A DNA stretch of 64,000 bases from the NCBI RefSeq assembly GCF_000709795.1, contig NZ_KL503802.1, forward strand, positions 1-64,000. Reading direction: 5' to 3'. The stretch is from Bartonella bacilliformis Ver097. Lineage in GTDB: Bacteria; Pseudomonadota; Alphaproteobacteria; Rhizobiales; Rhizobiaceae. The notes below the pieces were generated by a model, which saw only the letters and a list, made by a program, of their open reading frames with translations, did not search any database and was not told where the DNA came from. The translations under genes and the position numbers were made by a program. The first letter of the stretch is position 1; every line of letters begins with the position of its first letter. Below, piece by piece: positions 44,117 to 54,641 of the stretch.

Positions 44117-44497
44117 TGCTATTCTACCTTTTCAGATAACTTTCCTTTTACGAAAGCAACATTGACCACTAAAAAACGTTATACCAATCAATTATTGATG
44201 GTGGACACAAAAAGCGTTTTTTATTTATTGAAAATACAAAAATCATTGTGAAAAATATTTCAATCAATTATGCTTCTCAATGAAGCTTTTTAAAAAAATT
44301 TATGTTCTCATCACAAAAAGCAGCATTCCAACTACAATATATTGGTATGTCACATAATATTTATTAGTTGATTTCACAAAATAATGTTCAGAATATTAAG
44401 ATAAACTTATAAAAAATCGGTTATTTTTATTTTGACGGCTAGACAGCAAGAATTTTAATGTTATAACCGCACACATCTCACATGTTTATTGAAATGT
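44117..44497. other. Intergenic region between serC and tRNA-Phe
   Basis: 380 bp, AT-rich, no gene. It should hold the promoters of serC and, on the plus strand, of the tRNA; none is assigned. Confidence 0.45.
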
Positions 44498-44573
<76 letters not shown>

Positions 44574-45240
44574 TTTTGTTTTTTACTGCTTAATATGATT
44601 GACCTTATTAATATTTTTTAAAGGTAAGGAATAATATACTCAAAGTAAGGGAATAAAATTTTTCAACTCATCTCTATAATTTCCCTTAAGAGTAAAATAT
44701 AAATCGATCAATATATTCAACTATTAATTATAACTCACCCATACACTTTAAATATTGTATTTTAAAAAATCAACCATACTCAATTTATGCCTGTTAGATT
44801 TGGTATATTAACTGCTGTTATATTACCTGGTAGCAGCTCATGACATTGGTTCCTAAAACATAGTTAATTTGAAAAATAACAACATCTGTATGATAGCTAA
44901 ACCATCATCAATAGCAAATGTATAATCGCTAACTCATTACAAATATTAGGATTATCTTACACAATAGTTTATAGCTTTTGATTTTAACCGAAAATACTCA
45001 GTGAACATAGGAAAATTAATGCTAAGTAAAGTTTTCAGCGATTACATAATAGTATTTTGCATTTTTGACAAACACTCTGTGTCTAATTTTAAAGTGTCTA
45101 TGCATAAACACATCTATGTACAAAGATATTGATCATACAAGAAAACAACATCAATAAACCATAAAAACTATTTTATTAGAGCGCGCTGTGAGAGCTTATC
45201 CTGAGAAAAAAGTGTTTTTAAACTAACTAACAATCACAGA
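44574..45240. other. Gene-free stretch downstream of tRNA-Phe
   Basis: About 670 bp of very AT-rich DNA. No frame, RNA or repeat I can support, and no second copy of the tRNA 3' end noticed. Confidence 0.45.
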
Positions 45241-45265
45241 GAAAAGGAAATCAAAGAGAAACAAG

Positions 45266-46824
45266 GTGAAATGGAAGCTTTTTTTATTCCCTTCTTTAGC
45301 ATTATTGCCTATTCAAATTTTTTTTGGAGCCCCTGTTCCTGGAGTGATATAATAACCTCCTGATTATCCTCATGATAGAGCTATGCGTGTAAAATTTATA
45401 TGGGGGATAATATTGCTATGGTGCAGTATTTACATCTCTAATATTGCAATATGGAGATGACTATTTCCCTTAATAACTGTTTTCTACAAATGTTAAGCCA
45501 GATGTTTTTAGGGTGGAAATTTGTAAATAGCTCTGTTTTTTTACACACTATATTTCAGATGATGGATCGAAATCAGATATTGTGATCTCTATTATAATCC
45601 TAGAAAATAGCCACATTGCTCGATATTTTCCCTCCTCTGAGGTGATATCTTGCATGGCTTCCCAACAAGTCCCCTAATGACGATTGGAAATTGGAGTTGG
45701 GTAGATTGGAAATTTTGTAAAGATACGACCACTTCTTAACAAGATATCGGCTCTTGAAATATTGCTGTTGGCTGGACTTGAAAGAGCTTTAACGGATTAT
45801 CAAGGCAATTTTTAAGAATTACCCCCCATATGGTCTCAGTTGAAGACAACCTTACACAGCGAAGCCTAGTTACCTTAAATAAAGACACAACCAATTCTTC
45901 CAAATCTAATTTTCTTTTTTCTTATGACATGAAACGACGGAATCTCTATATCAATGGGAAACCAGAGGATACGTTGGCTTATTGCCCTGCTTCGAGAAAC
46001 AAGGAAAATGTTGCTCATCTCACTAAAACATGGATAAAAAGATTATAGGAAATTACTAAAAGTACTAGTTCTAAGGAGAAAGCAGCAATTGCTCCTTGTG
46101 GAATTTGTATGATTCAGACTATGCAAATGCTCGCTGAATTACAAGAAGATCATCTCAGAGGGTCTCTATCATAATGGAGAAGATTATTTTTTAAATACAC
46201 AAAAAGGTATAAGCCCATTTACATCATTTCATCAAAGAATTTCTTGGCTTGCAGCAAAGCTTGAAGCTACAATATCCTATGATACAATACCTTTGGTATA
46301 GGAGAGAGTACTTTGACGCGAACAACTAAAACAACTCGTGCAGCAGCGTCAATATTGTTACCCCGATATGAGTGGAAACCTTCCTTTATAGAAAGAATGT
46401 CGGAAGAAGAGGTGAGAAACCAGCTTAAAGTCTGTTCAGGGCTCTTGAAAGAACACTTTGGTATATTGTAATTATTAGATCAACTATGGATGGTAGTACT
46501 ATCATTGGTCATGCTCAACTCATTTTAAGAGGCTCATATTAATTCCTACAAACATAGTGAGTATGAGTTTTGATGAGTTTAGGAGTTATCTCAATCCAAC
46601 GAGAAATCCAGAAATATTACTTTCTGAGTTTTCACTTAGGGGTAGTCGAAGACTTTATACACTAATAACTTTATCAAATGACTCAACTAAATGAAATTCC
46701 TTTGAATTTTTATGTTTCGCAAGACGGCTGTACTGGAAAAAGAGAGCATAGAAGAGGCAATAGAGAACTTCCAAGAGTTTCTATTATCAATCAGTGTTTA
46801 AATGGTAAATGTGCAATTCAATAA
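45266..46824 (+). pseudogene. Array of decayed coding fragments, family not recognised
   Basis: Several protein-like stretches in shifting plus-strand frames: a signal-peptide-like start at GTG 45266 (KWKLFLFPSLALLPIQIFFG) that stops after 28 codons; TIGNWSWVDWKFCKDTTTS near 45680; a 72-codon frame at 45830-46048 (VSVEDNLTQRSLVTLNKDTT); GISPFTSFHQRISWLAAKLE near 46205-46300; RYEWKPSFIERMSEEEVRNQ near 46360-46430; DEFRSYLNPTRNPEILLSEF near 46575; and a 50-residue peptide ending CLNGKCAIQ at 46824. All lie on one strand in order, so this was probably one or a few genes now broken by many stops and shifts. I cannot name the family. Confidence 0.45.
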
Positions 46825-47266
46825 AAATTAAAATTCTGAATGCATTAAGAACCATATACTATGAACCAACAAGATAGGACAAGATCTGGTCTTCTATGAC
46901 AAAATATTATAGTGCAGCATGAAGACTTTTAGCTGCACTCTTTATATTGCTCTTATCCTCTTGTTTAGAAAAAAGAATAAGTCATTTTTATAACGCTAAC
47001 AATAGAAAAAACAATAACACTCTTAAAAAAATCAGTTTAACTTACTAAAAATATAGAAATTTACATGTTTCACAAAATATTTTATAGATTTTTCCTGTTA
47101 TAAACTGTTGCCTGTTTTTCCTACCTTTGAGTATTTTTTGTTACTCAAGTAAATGTCCTCTATAATTGTATTATCCAAACTTTTACCTTAATCTCCTTCT
47201 ACCCTGAGGAGCAAAACTTAACAGCATATTAGATAAAATATACTGCCCAAATAATTAGAGAGTAAG
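46825..47266. other. Intergenic region upstream of gpsA
   Basis: 440 bp, AT-rich, no gene. The region just before gpsA contains GAGGAG and AGAGAGTAAG; the latter is the likely ribosome site for gpsA. Confidence 0.45.
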
Positions 47267-48202
47267 ATGAAAATAACAATTTTTGGCGGTGGTGCATGGG
47301 GACAAGCCCTTGCATTTGCTTTTGCGCAAAAAAATGAAATTCGAATTGTTTCGAGACGAAACATTTCAACTGCACTAATGCCTTTAAATGAAACCCTGAA
47401 TAAAAATTCCCATAGAATTATCTTACAATCTTCCCTGGAAGAGAGTTTAAATTCTGAACTTTTTGTCATTGCTATCAGCGTTCAAGCCTTAAGAGAATGG
47501 TTTATTCGCACACACTTAAACCAAAGCTCAAAAATACTCATTGCTAGCAAAGGTATCGAGGAAAAAACAGGGATATTCATTAGCCAAATTGCAAAAAAAT
47601 TCATTTCTTTAGAAAATCTTTGTTTTTTAGCAGGCCCAAGTTTTGCTAAAGAAATTATCCTGGGTCTCCCATGTGCATTAGCCATTCATTCATGTAACCC
47701 AATCCTAGCTCAAAAATTTGCAAACCAAATGCCTTCCTTTATCAAACCCTACATTGAAGATGACATCATTGGTGGCGAAATAGCGAGTGCGTATAAAAAT
47801 GTTATTGCTATAGCAGGAGGAATCTGCGACGGGTTGAATTTAGGCCAGAATGCTAAAGCATCTCTTTTATCACGTGGACTTGTAGAAATGTGCAAATTTG
47901 GAGAATATTTCGGCGCAAAAATGCAGACTTTTTTGGGACTTTCTGGTGCAGGTGATTTGTTTTTAACAGCTAATTCTCTTCTTTCCAGGAACTATCGTGT
48001 TGGACTGGGATTAGCTCAAAATAAACTTTTAGAAGATATTTTAAGTGATTTAGGCGAAATAGCGGAAGGTATAAAAACTTCTCAAGCAATTACTCAAATT
48101 TCTGAAAGAGAAGGTATCTACACTCCTATCGCTACAGAAATCCAAAAAATCATTCAAGGGAAAAGCCCTCTAAAAAGTATGAGTACCTTGATGAAAAGAT
48201 GA
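47267..48202 (+). CDS. gpsA: Glycerol-3-phosphate dehydrogenase [NAD(P)+], Helicobacter-like
   Basis: Reduces dihydroxyacetone phosphate to glycerol-3-phosphate, the backbone for phospholipids; 311 residues. The N-terminal Rossmann motif is [15 protein letters not shown]; the catalytic lysine is in [13 protein letters not shown]; other blocks are [53 protein letters not shown] and [11 protein letters not shown]. These and the short length resemble epsilonproteobacterial (Helicobacter-type) GpsA rather than the roughly 330-residue alphaproteobacterial enzyme. Transfer of gpsA into Bartonella from such donors has been reported. The gene is flanked on both sides by decayed sequence, as expected for an insertion site. 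The donor assignment rests on memory of the family, not on a search. Confidence 0.93.
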
Positions 48203-48571
48203 CAGCTTTAATTCGCTCGTTAATGCAGAAGAAACTCGAAAAAGAAATTTAAATTCAATAGGGATCGTTAATCAAAGACTTTTAGAGAATAATCCGGCTG
48301 TTATCATTAAAACTCTCCTATCGAAAATCAAAGTGCATTCACAGCTTGATCTAATTTAGATAGCAACGGATATCGCCATCATTAGCCCTTTTAAAAGCTT
48401 ATATTATCATTAAGTCGTATTCTAAATAGATGCCTTTTAAACATTCTTTTGAAACTAGCTACAACACTTGAACCAGCGCTACAAGACATAAAACATTTAT
48501 CTATGGAAAAAGAGAAAAAAGCTAACCAAGAAAATTTTGACAAAAGATTCATCGAATTTAATCTAACATAG
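48195..48571 (+). pseudogene. Possible decayed gene downstream of gpsA
   Basis: Two protein-like stretches on the plus strand, in different frames: FNSLVNAEETRKRNLNSIGI ... VNQRLLENNPAVIIKTLLSK (stop at about 48358), then KLATTLEPALQDIKHLSMEK ... ENFDKRFIEFNLT ending at TAG 48569-48571. Both are helical and charged. No start codon or family recognised. A 96-codon frame on the opposite strand (48391-48681) is probably the shadow of this remnant. Confidence 0.35.
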
Positions 48572-48777
48572 AGAAAAAACAGCACACAAGCTAAAAAACT
48601 GACCATAATAAGAGCAGTTTTATTCAGATTAACAATATTGCAACTGAAATCATTCTTGGGTGGACCAAAAAACAATAACATCGGCCCTATACCCAGAACA
48701 TATATTTAAAATTATTACTTAAAATCTATTAATTAAGGTAGAGGCTAAAGTTTTAATAAAGCCTCTATCATATTTAT

Positions 48778-50205
48778 CTACCGCTTAAGCTTATATCCTA
48801 CCACCAAAAGCAAACACCATATAGGAATGATGATAACTGCCAAACTCATGTCAGGTATTGGTACAGGAAGGTAAGAGTCAAGAGGGAATGCTTCTATTCC
48901 TATCATATGACAGAATCGAGTCATTAATCCATCTTGTCCAAAGCCACTGATAAACATAACGCAAAATAATATGGCAAGGAAGAAAAGACAGAGATAATTA
49001 GCATAAGGATATAAACCAAATGGATAAACAAACTTATCCTTTTTGTCTTTATGAGCTTTCCTAAATTTCAAATGAACAATAACAATAAGAGCCCACGTCA
49101 TAGCTGCTGCTGTAGTTGACATAGCCATGACACGCGCAAAAACATTATCGGGCATTAAAGAATTAACAATGATAATTGTCGCAGTACAAAGTGACGAAAA
49201 AAGAACAGCGACATAAGGAACACGAGCACTACTCAATTTACCAAAAATACTTGGCGCATTTTTTTGTACCGCTAAACTGTAAAGCATACGACCATTCGAA
49301 TAAAGACCACTATTGTAAACTGAAATAGCAGCCATAATTACCACAAAATTCAAAATATGGCCAGCTGCAGGAATGCCTACGCTTTCAAAAATAGTGACAA
49401 AAGGACTTTTCTCTTTTCCAATCATATTCCACGGCATTATCATCATAATAATACCGATAGAGCCAACATAAAAAAACATAACCTGTTGCATAATTTTACG
49501 AATAGCAGTGGGTATTGTTTTTTCTGGTTCCATTGCCTCTCCAGCAGCTACACCAACAAGCTCAGTTCCACAAAAAGCAAACATGATCACAGAAGTCGCC
49601 AATAAAACTCCTGTTGCTCCATAAGGGAAAAAACCGCCATGATCCCAGAGATGTTGGATACTCGCTTGCCCCCCATTCATCCCTGTGAGAACAAGGAAAA
49701 TTCCAAAAATAATCATACCAATAACAGCTAATACTTTGATCAAAGCTAAACCATACTCAAATTCTCCATACAGGCGAACATCAATAAGATTGAGCAATGT
49801 AACAAGCGCAAGAACAATAAGAGATGTTTTCCAGTGATCGATCATAATCCAATAATCAAGATAAAGTCCAATAACTGTTATTTGAACCATGCTCGCAAGA
49901 ACATAAAGAAACCAATAATTCCAACCCGCTATAAAACCAGCTAAATTCCCCCAATATTTATAAGCAAAGTGACTAAAAGCACCTGAAACTGGCTCTTCGG
50001 CTAACATTTCTCCAAGCATCCGCATAATAAAATAGATAATCAGCCCACCCAAAGCATAAGCAAGAATAGTTGAAGGTCCTGCTAATTGAATAGCTTCTGT
50101 TGATCCATAAAAAAGCCCTGTTCCAATGACGCCTCCCAAAGCAATCATTTGAACATGACGATCTTTAAGGCTACGCTTCAATTCGTTGTTTTTTACCTCA
50201 GACAT
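48778..50205 (-). CDS. Amino-acid permease, APC superfamily (copy 1)
   Basis: 475 residues with about 12 membrane helices. The family signature MIALGGVIGTGLFYGSTEAI lies at residues about 19-38, with the consensus GEMLAEEPVSGAFSHFAYKY soon after. It imports one or more amino acids with protons across the inner membrane; the substrate cannot be told. It is about 80 percent identical by eye to the permease at 52749-54176, with one 155-bp stretch identical at DNA level. bioY lies about 620 bp upstream. Confidence 0.92.
   Translation of the reverse strand: MSEVKNNELKRSLKDRHVQMIALGGVIGTGLFYGSTEAIQLAGPSTILAYALGGLIIYFIMRMLGEMLAEEPVSGAFSHFAYKYWGNLAGFIAGWNYWFLYVLASMVQITVIGLYLDYWIMIDHWKTSLIVLALVTLLNLIDVRLYGEFEYGLALIKVLAVIGMIIFGIFLVLTGMNGGQASIQHLWDHGGFFPYGATGVLLATSVIMFAFCGTELVGVAAGEAMEPEKTIPTAIRKIMQQVMFFYVGSIGIIMMIMPWNMIGKEKSPFVTIFESVGIPAAGHILNFVVIMAAISVYNSGLYSNGRMLYSLAVQKNAPSIFGKLSSARVPYVAVLFSSLCTATIIIVNSLMPDNVFARVMAMSTTAAAMTWALIVIVHLKFRKAHKDKKDKFVYPFGLYPYANYLCLFFLAILFCVMFISGFGQDGLMTRFCHMIGIEAFPLDSYLPVPIPDMSLAVIIIPIWCLLLVVGYKLKR
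49579..49733. repeat. 155-bp segment identical to 53550-53704
   Basis: Exact direct repeat within the two permease genes, about 3.97 kb apart, bounded on both sides by diverged sequence. This pattern indicates recent gene conversion or strong local constraint between the paralogues. Confidence 0.85.
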
Positions 50206-52748: not shown

Positions 52749-54176
52749 CTATCGCTTAAACTTATATCCTACTATTAAAAGCAAACACCATATAGGAATG
52801 ATTATAACTGCCAAACTCATATCGGGCATCTGTACAGGAATATAAGAATCAATAGAAGGAACTTCTATTCCTACCATATGACTGAGTTGGATCATGAATC
52901 CATCTTGCCCAAAACCACTGATAAACATAATGCATACCAATAAAGCAAGAAAACAAAGGCAAAAGTAATTAGCATAAGGATATAAACCAAATGGATAAAT
53001 AAGCTTATCTTTTTTACTTTTATGCGCTTTTCGAAATTTCAGATGAACAATAACAATAAGAGCCCAAGTAATAACCGCCGCTGCAGTTGCAATAGTCATG
53101 ATACGCATAAAACTATTATCAGGCATAAGGCAATTAACAACAACAATCACTGCAGTACAAAGTGATGAAAAAAGAACGCCAACATAAGGAACACAAGCAC
53201 GATTCAATTTACTAAAAATACGTGGCGCATTTTTTTGTACCGCTAAACTGTAAAGCATACGACCATTCGAATAAATACCACTATTATAAACTGAAATGGC
53301 AGCCATAATTACCACAAAATTCAAAATATGACCGGCCGCAGGAATGCCTACAGCTTCAAAAATAGCAACAAAGGGACTCCCATTTTTTCCAATCATATTC
53401 CACGGAATTATCATCATAATAATACCAATAGAACCAATATAAAAAATTAAAACTCTCCACATAACTTTACGAATAGCAATAGGAATTTCTTTTTGCGGAT
53501 TCGATGTCTCTCCAGCAGCCACACCAATCAGCTCAGTTCCACCGAAAGAAAACATGATCACAGAAGTCGCCAATAAAACTCCTGTTGCTCCATAAGGGAA
53601 AAAACCGCCATGATCCCAGAGATGTTGGATACTCGCTTGCCCCCCATTCATCCCTGTGAGAACAAGGAAAATTCCAAAAATAATCATACCAATAACAGCT
53701 AATATTTTGATCAAAGCTAAACCATATTCAAATTCTCCATAAAAGCGAACATGAATAAGATTAACCAATGTAACCAAAATAAGAACAATGAAAGATGATT
53801 TCCAATGATCGATCATAATCCAATGATCAAGATAAAATCCGATAACTGTCAGTTCCGCCATACTAACAAGAATATAAAGAAACCAATAATTCCAACCCGC
53901 TATAAAACCAGCTAAGTTCCCCCAATATTTATAAGAAAAAAAACTGAAAGCACCTGAAACTGGTTCTTCAACCAACATTTCCCCAAGCATTCGCATAATA
54001 AAATAGATAATTATACCACCCAAAAGGTAAGCCAAAATAGTCGCAGGCCCCGCTAATTGAATAGCTTCTGTTGATCCATAAAAAAGCCCTGTTCCAATGA
54101 CGCCCCCTAAAGCAATCATCTGAATGTGACGACTTTTAAGGTCACGCTTCAATTCATCGTGTTTTACCTCAAACAT
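52749..54176 (-). CDS. Amino-acid permease, APC superfamily (copy 2)
   Basis: 475 residues from ATG 54176 (MFEVKHDELKRDLKSRHIQM), matching the start and length of copy 1; GAGGGGG lies 8 bases upstream. An upstream in-frame start at 54215 would add 13 residues and is rejected. The same signature (MIALGGVIGTGLFYGSTEAI) and helix layout as copy 1. Divergence is spread over loops and several helices (for example copy 1 VLASMVQITVIGLYLDYWI against ILVSMAELTVIGFYLDHWI), so the pair may have different amino-acid ranges. It lies 45 bp upstream of bioM, same strand, and could be co-transcribed with it. Confidence 0.92.
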   Translation of the reverse strand: MFEVKHDELKRDLKSRHIQMIALGGVIGTGLFYGSTEAIQLAGPATILAYLLGGIIIYFIMRMLGEMLVEEPVSGAFSFFSYKYWGNLAGFIAGWNYWFLYILVSMAELTVIGFYLDHWIMIDHWKSSFIVLILVTLVNLIHVRFYGEFEYGLALIKILAVIGMIIFGIFLVLTGMNGGQASIQHLWDHGGFFPYGATGVLLATSVIMFSFGGTELIGVAAGETSNPQKEIPIAIRKVMWRVLIFYIGSIGIIMMIIPWNMIGKNGSPFVAIFEAVGIPAAGHILNFVVIMAAISVYNSGIYSNGRMLYSLAVQKNAPRIFSKLNRACVPYVGVLFSSLCTAVIVVVNCLMPDNSFMRIMTIATAAAVITWALIVIVHLKFRKAHKSKKDKLIYPFGLYPYANYFCLCFLALLVCIMFISGFGQDGFMIQLSHMVGIEVPSIDSYIPVQMPDMSLAVIIIPIWCLLLIVGYKFKR

Positions 54177-54641
54177 CAATTTCCCCCTCATTTTTGTGTA
54201 CCAACCTTTACACAAAAGACACTTATGTATTTTTTAAAACACAGATAGTAATTTATTTTTTCACTATTTTGCAACTCATTTATTTGAATGCATTACAAAA
54301 ATTTAAAAGTAAAAAATTCATTCTTCTAAGTCTGCAAACCGCTCTACGAAAATATTTAAATTTCTAAACAGTGCATCCAAACTTTTTATTGATCAGTTAC
54401 TATACGCAAAAGCTCAATAATATACCTTTCTTCGCTTAGTTAACTTAATTTTGATTCTATTAAATCAATCGATTTTCATATGACATAATTTTTACTCACA
54501 AAAAAATACGCACAATTTGTTGCAAAACGTCTCTTTTCAATCTCCACCCCATAAAATCTCAAAAAATTGCATGCTTGCTTTTATACGTACTTTTAGCTAT
54601 TACCCTCACTCTAATTTCTATCTAATTAATTACAAACTTAT
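54177..54641. other. Intergenic region between the permease and tRNA-Thr
   Basis: 465 bp, AT-rich, no gene. It holds the promoters of the permease/biotin cluster and of the divergent tRNA; none assigned. Confidence 0.45.

Follow-up and report, generated by a model that had tools for sequence, protein, structure and literature searches.

Sequence evidence for a Helicobacter origin of the gpsA gene of Bartonella bacilliformis Ver097

The window (the whole stretch of 64,000 nucleotides from contig NZ_KL503802.1 that was analysed) carries a complete gpsA gene, whose product supplies glycerol-3-phosphate for phospholipids and thereby decides whether a bacterium makes its own phospholipid backbone or takes it from the host. 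The features of the locus are collected in Table 1. There is only one match to PF01210 in the genome (1,394,706 bases in 6 contigs), and it is this gene. The protein scores 473.2 bits against the NCBIfam equivalog NF000943 (NAD(P)H-dependent glycerol-3-phosphate dehydrogenase), for which the curated cut-off is 400 bits. By sequence, its nearest solved structure is 1z82, followed by 1evy and 3k96. Residues K95, K177, D230, T234, R241 and N242, which we take to be catalytic and substrate residues of GpsA, have the same letters in 1evy (positions counted by hand). The dN/dS ratio of gpsA lies between 0.08 and 0.21 in seven Bartonella pairs, and the gene, as judged from such comparisons, is kept under purifying selection. 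The equivalog score, the letters conserved in 1evy and the low dN/dS together indicate that the window protein is very likely an active enzyme.

Table 1. Coordinates of gpsA and neighbouring features in the window
Feature	Position	Strand	Remarks
tRNA-Phe	44498-44572	+	Within the left stretch; unlinked to gpsA in Bartonella G431 and hence outside the import
Broken DUF1561-type gene	45139..46870	+	Neighbour outside the import; DNA matches to L122; extent approximate
Upstream stretch like that of Helicobacter G417 gpsA	47232..47266	+	blastn, alignment, controls
-10-like box GATAAAATATA	47232-47242	+	Putative promoter role
Purine-rich AGAGAG	47257-47262	+	Putative ribosome-binding role
gpsA, Helicobacter-type glycerol-3-phosphate dehydrogenase	47267..48202	+	311 aa, ATG to TGA; ORF, profile and trees
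Spacer from gpsA to permease	48203..48777	.	First 45 bases unlike the Helicobacter gpsA-glyQ spacer
Amino acid permease, right neighbour	48778..50205	-	Same place in G431

The gene lies between stretches that contain few long open reading frames (44117-47266 on the left and 48203-48777 on the right). An earlier note on this DNA had taken decayed DNA on both flanks as marking an insertion. The scarcity of long frames holds on both sides, but the left stretch is a broken DUF1561-type neighbour and not debris of the import. It matches the DNA of DUF1561-type genes in relatives and has no plus-strand frame of more than 72 amino acids there, and at the same left-flank position the Bartonella genome G431 has DUF1561-type open frames of 649 and 644 amino acids (compared as DNA; the family name is taken from the intact copy in genome G032). 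The note had also read the upstream tRNA-Phe as a mark of the insertion, and this reading does not survive the comparison with G431, where a scan from about 10 kb left to 9 kb right of gpsA finds a tRNA-Thr (L122) and no other tRNA. The 386-amino acid gene that stands beside tRNA-Phe in the window is located about 0.97 Mb from gpsA in the record coordinates of G431. The two genomes share gpsA and, around it, 8.7 kb of DNA that is 91% identical. The permease on the right and a second amino acid permease gene (52749-54215) are 81% identical to each other, and both are also present in G431.

There are 71 Bartonella genomes in the collection, counting that of the window, and nine of them carry a gpsA of the window type, with proteins that are 74-95% identical to the window protein. 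These carriers include B. melophagi K-2C, Bartonella sp. WD12.1, A05 and F02, as well as G431, whose protein is 95% identical to that of the window. Another gpsA type, only 29-36% identical to window GpsA, is found in 56 genomes, and there is no gpsA match in the remaining six.

Window GpsA is 33-37% identical to most GpsA proteins of its own order, and across 249 Pseudomonadota genomes, that of the window counted, the best of the listed matches other than itself is G129 at 41%. There are matches in 118 of 121 Helicobacteraceae genomes and none in the other 3. Seven members of this family stand apart, namely G417 (81%), G306 (78%), G308 (77%), G416 (74%), G307 (73%), G414 (71%) and G415 (70%), whereas the remaining full-length matches reach at most 65% and G339 has a broken gene with a 131-residue piece at 67%. 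Three of the seven are the strains 13S00477-4 (G306), 11S02596-1 (G308) and 12S02634-8 (G307), and the 2017 description of lizard Helicobacter genomes (PMC5566214) gives their hosts as the common house gecko, the spiny-tailed monitor and the tegu. Isolation from lizards is known for these three of the seven, and the closest relative, G417, is not among them. The 311-residue length and the sequence blocks that had been cited earlier as fitting Helicobacter GpsA are all present in the window, and each block also occurs in several Helicobacter proteins.

A tree of 69 proteins was composed of nine window-type Bartonella, 24 Helicobacter-group, five Sulfurimonas-type, ten other Bartonella, 11 alphaproteobacterial and ten other Pseudomonadota sequences, and a 74-row tree used the same set minus L019, L041 and L070 plus eight other Bartonella. 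In the 69-protein tree the nine window-type genes fall into a single clade (100/97), nested in a clade of 16 rows that adds the seven near Helicobacter (97/93) and, at the next level, in a 28-row Helicobacter clade (100/99). The corresponding supports in the 74-row tree are 100/97, 97/92 and 100/98. The nine again form a clade (98/92) in a 38-row tree built from Campylobacterota and Bartonella, although their grouping with the seven Helicobacter is not resolved there. The proposal of a Helicobacter-like donor is thus borne out by 70-81% identity to seven Helicobacteraceae and by strongly supported nesting within Helicobacter, and a Helicobacter origin of the window gene is firmly supported. 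The donor would have been a Helicobacter that belonged to, or stood next to, the group containing the lizard strains, and the 38-row tree does not reject the seven as a clade that excludes Bartonella (p-AU 0.38).

Tree placement covers 18 of the 56 Bartonella genomes with another gpsA type. Seven of these genes (G020, G007, G003, G006, G013, G011 and G458) cluster with alphaproteobacteria in the 74-row tree (100/99), and they belong to the same enzyme family but are only 33-36% identical to the window's. Ten others plus G004 make up a further type in the same tree (100/100), and the rows closest to it sit on long branches. The rows of this further type (L015, L016, L020, L021, L023, L025, L027, L112, L113, L121 and L229) stand apart from both the alphaproteobacterial and the Helicobacter types. 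Thus, a single genus exhibits four states: an alphaproteobacterial gpsA, a Helicobacter gpsA, a further type, or no gpsA.

The base composition of gpsA is ordinary for the window (GC z -1.2, GC3 z 0.0), and it was dropped as evidence of import. Compared with 30 other ORFs of the window, gpsA is nearer in codon use to four Helicobacter loci than all but 0, 1, 2 and 2 of them, and its lean to Helicobacter 13S00477-4 exceeds that of each of the 30. A comparison with neighbouring genes, which had been suggested as a check, therefore gives a mixed answer: composition offers nothing, and codon use shows a modest lean to Helicobacter.

The likeness to Helicobacter extends beyond the coding region. 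The gpsA genes of G417, 11S02596-1, 13S00477-4, 12S02634-8, G416, G414 and G415 are full-length relatives for which the likeness reaches non-coding flanks. The neighbourhood of gpsA is collinear over several kilobases in the first four of these, which argues that Helicobacter holds the settled version, and in G417 the gene after gpsA is glyQ. Thus, in the Helicobacter loci compared, gpsA is located in a collinear neighbourhood beside glyQ, whereas in Bartonella it stands alone and in differing places. With blastn, the window aligns with G417 from position 47232, which is 35 bases ahead of the start codon, as far as the stop, an interval that takes in the -10-like box and the putative ribosome-binding region of Table 1. 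For this upstream likeness, none of 51 upstream stretches of control Helicobacter ORFs scores as high in either the window or G431, and 8 of 400 shuffles for the window and 3 of 400 for G431 do. The upstream likeness is weak in the other seven Bartonella (A05, F02, the B. melophagi group and G032), where 4 to 38 of the 51 controls score as high.

On the other side of the gene, likeness to the G417 spacer between gpsA and glyQ is seen in the first 45 bases past the stop codon of A05, F02, B. melophagi, G024, G021 and WD12.1. None of 51 control spacers scores as high, and the shuffles that do (of 400) number 0 for A05, 0 for F02, 15 for B. melophagi, 1 for G024, 0 for G021 and 1 for WD12.1. This downstream likeness is absent from the window, G431 and G032, for which 6, 36 and 14 of the 51 controls score as high; for the window, 84 of 400 shuffles do so as well. 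The upstream likeness in two genomes and the downstream likeness in six others suggest that the imported piece probably began some 35 bases ahead of gpsA and reached roughly to where glyQ starts, and that different lineages retained different ends. This donor-like flanking DNA supports the transfer independently of the protein tree. A promoter scan of 46800-48800 was uninformative, since it gave one sigma-70-like match (47138-47166) compared with 7.7 expected in shuffles.

There are at least four different gpsA surroundings in the nine Bartonella genomes, and DNA homology between them is nearly confined to the gene plus some tens of bases. In the window and G431 the gene adjoins an amino acid permease, in A05 it is located between an aromatic amino acid lyase and a tRNA-Arg, and in F02 it lies about 1 kb from tmRNA. 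The B. melophagi group has it next to a hisS-type gene, with a tRNA-Met on the opposite side, which is followed by 5S and 23S in G021, the sole member of this group scanned for RNA families. G431 has hisS about 13 kb from gpsA. In G032, a piece comprising the 3' third of gpsA is found at the hisS site, and a full copy is located elsewhere. The two places (L125:10001-13820 and L126:9838-13001) share 3164 identical bases that run from inside gpsA via tRNA-Met and 5S into 23S, and they may reflect gene conversion, duplication or misassembly. Both 23S matches in G032 are shorter than the one in G021. Residues 246-311 of the G032 protein (L007) reach no more than 62% identity with any of 28 other sequences, a sharp divergence unlike the rest of the protein. 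The differing positions across the nine genomes indicate that gpsA or its surroundings have moved since arrival.

We consider it very probable that an ancestor of the nine sampled Bartonella gained gpsA as a short piece from a Helicobacter in or beside the lizard-strain group and that the gene has been kept since. Another possibility is that several imports took place separately, each accounting for one genomic position, and that their Helicobacter donors were closely related. The variety of surroundings, with homology nearly confined to the gene, is compatible with such a series, as are rpoB trees, in which the deep branches are not resolved and the nine carriers are not recovered as one clade. 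However, the nine genes form a clade that excludes all sampled Helicobacter (100/97 and 98/92), and the occurrence of hisS beside gpsA in the B. melophagi group, beside a gpsA piece in G032 and 13 kb away in G431 fits one old site that was rearranged, so that separate imports appear rather improbable.

Vertical inheritance from alphaproteobacteria, with mere divergence of the sequence, would account for a base composition that matches the window. Yet a placement with alphaproteobacteria, which the earlier note had set against its own proposal, is rejected when the nine Bartonella are forced into a clade with them on the 74-row tree (170 log-likelihood units worse, p-AU 6e-95), and forcing all Bartonella into one clade is likewise rejected (p-AU 3e-56). 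The identity of 33-37% to most genes of the same order, as against 70-81% to the seven Helicobacter, and the donor-like non-coding flanks argue in the same direction, and we regard this explanation as already refuted. Scarcely any more weight is due to a reverse transfer from Bartonella to a lizard-type Helicobacter, or to contamination of the Bartonella records. A clade of all 24 Helicobacter rows without Bartonella is only a marginal case in the 38-row tree (p-AU 0.051), which leaves some room for these ideas, but the Helicobacter gene has its collinear neighbourhood and adjoining glyQ, Bartonella is nested in Helicobacter in the 69-protein and 74-row trees, and nine genomes carry the gene, two of them with the shared 8.7 kb around it.

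If a single acquisition by the ancestor of the nine is accepted, the arriving piece would have been about 1 kb in length: the gene itself, roughly 35 upstream bases that hold a promoter-like box and a ribosome-binding region, and the downstream spacer up to roughly where glyQ begins. The imported enzyme would reduce dihydroxyacetone phosphate to sn-glycerol-3-phosphate for phospholipid synthesis, and it would stand in for the alphaproteobacterial gpsA, which is absent from these genomes. Purifying selection has kept the gene, and its genomic surroundings have changed over time. A more doubtful extension, offered tentatively, is that the donor was a reptile-associated Helicobacter with which the Bartonella ancestor shared a reptile gut or a reptile-fed arthropod, and that parts of the donor's promoter region and of the glyQ-side spacer persist next to the gene as scars of a single event. 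The donor group hints at the habitat of early Bartonella.

Zhu et al. 2014 reportedly described transfers in the phospholipid pathway of Bartonella, with imports of gpsA from several donors, Helicobacter among them. That study concerns the same genus and the same pathway, and the transfer of gpsA is thus a known event for which the donor is sharpened here. The lizard-type donor and the non-coding scars may go further than that study, and a literature search cannot show them to be unpublished. The refinement to a lizard-type donor postdates that work, given the 2017 date of the lizard Helicobacter genomes (PMC5566214).

A search of 22 Bartonella genomes for other routes to glycerol-3-phosphate found a match to glycerol kinase (glpK) in one of them, G020, as two pieces below the cut-off, and glpK is absent from the window's genome in this search. 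For the importer of glycerol-3-phosphate, the binding protein UgpB scores over the cut-off in 19 of the 22, including the window's genome and all six without a gpsA match, and there is no UgpB in G020. This pattern of ugpB and gpsA fits a choice between making and importing glycerol-3-phosphate. The gene had been called essential unless glycerol-3-phosphate is taken up, and here it is conditionally so, because the importer's ugpB is intact in the window's genome; glpK is absent from it. Two other genomes have ugpB in two frames, with the break near position 310 (G024:C1:388850-390159 and G449:C2:224177-225486), and both of these genomes keep gpsA.
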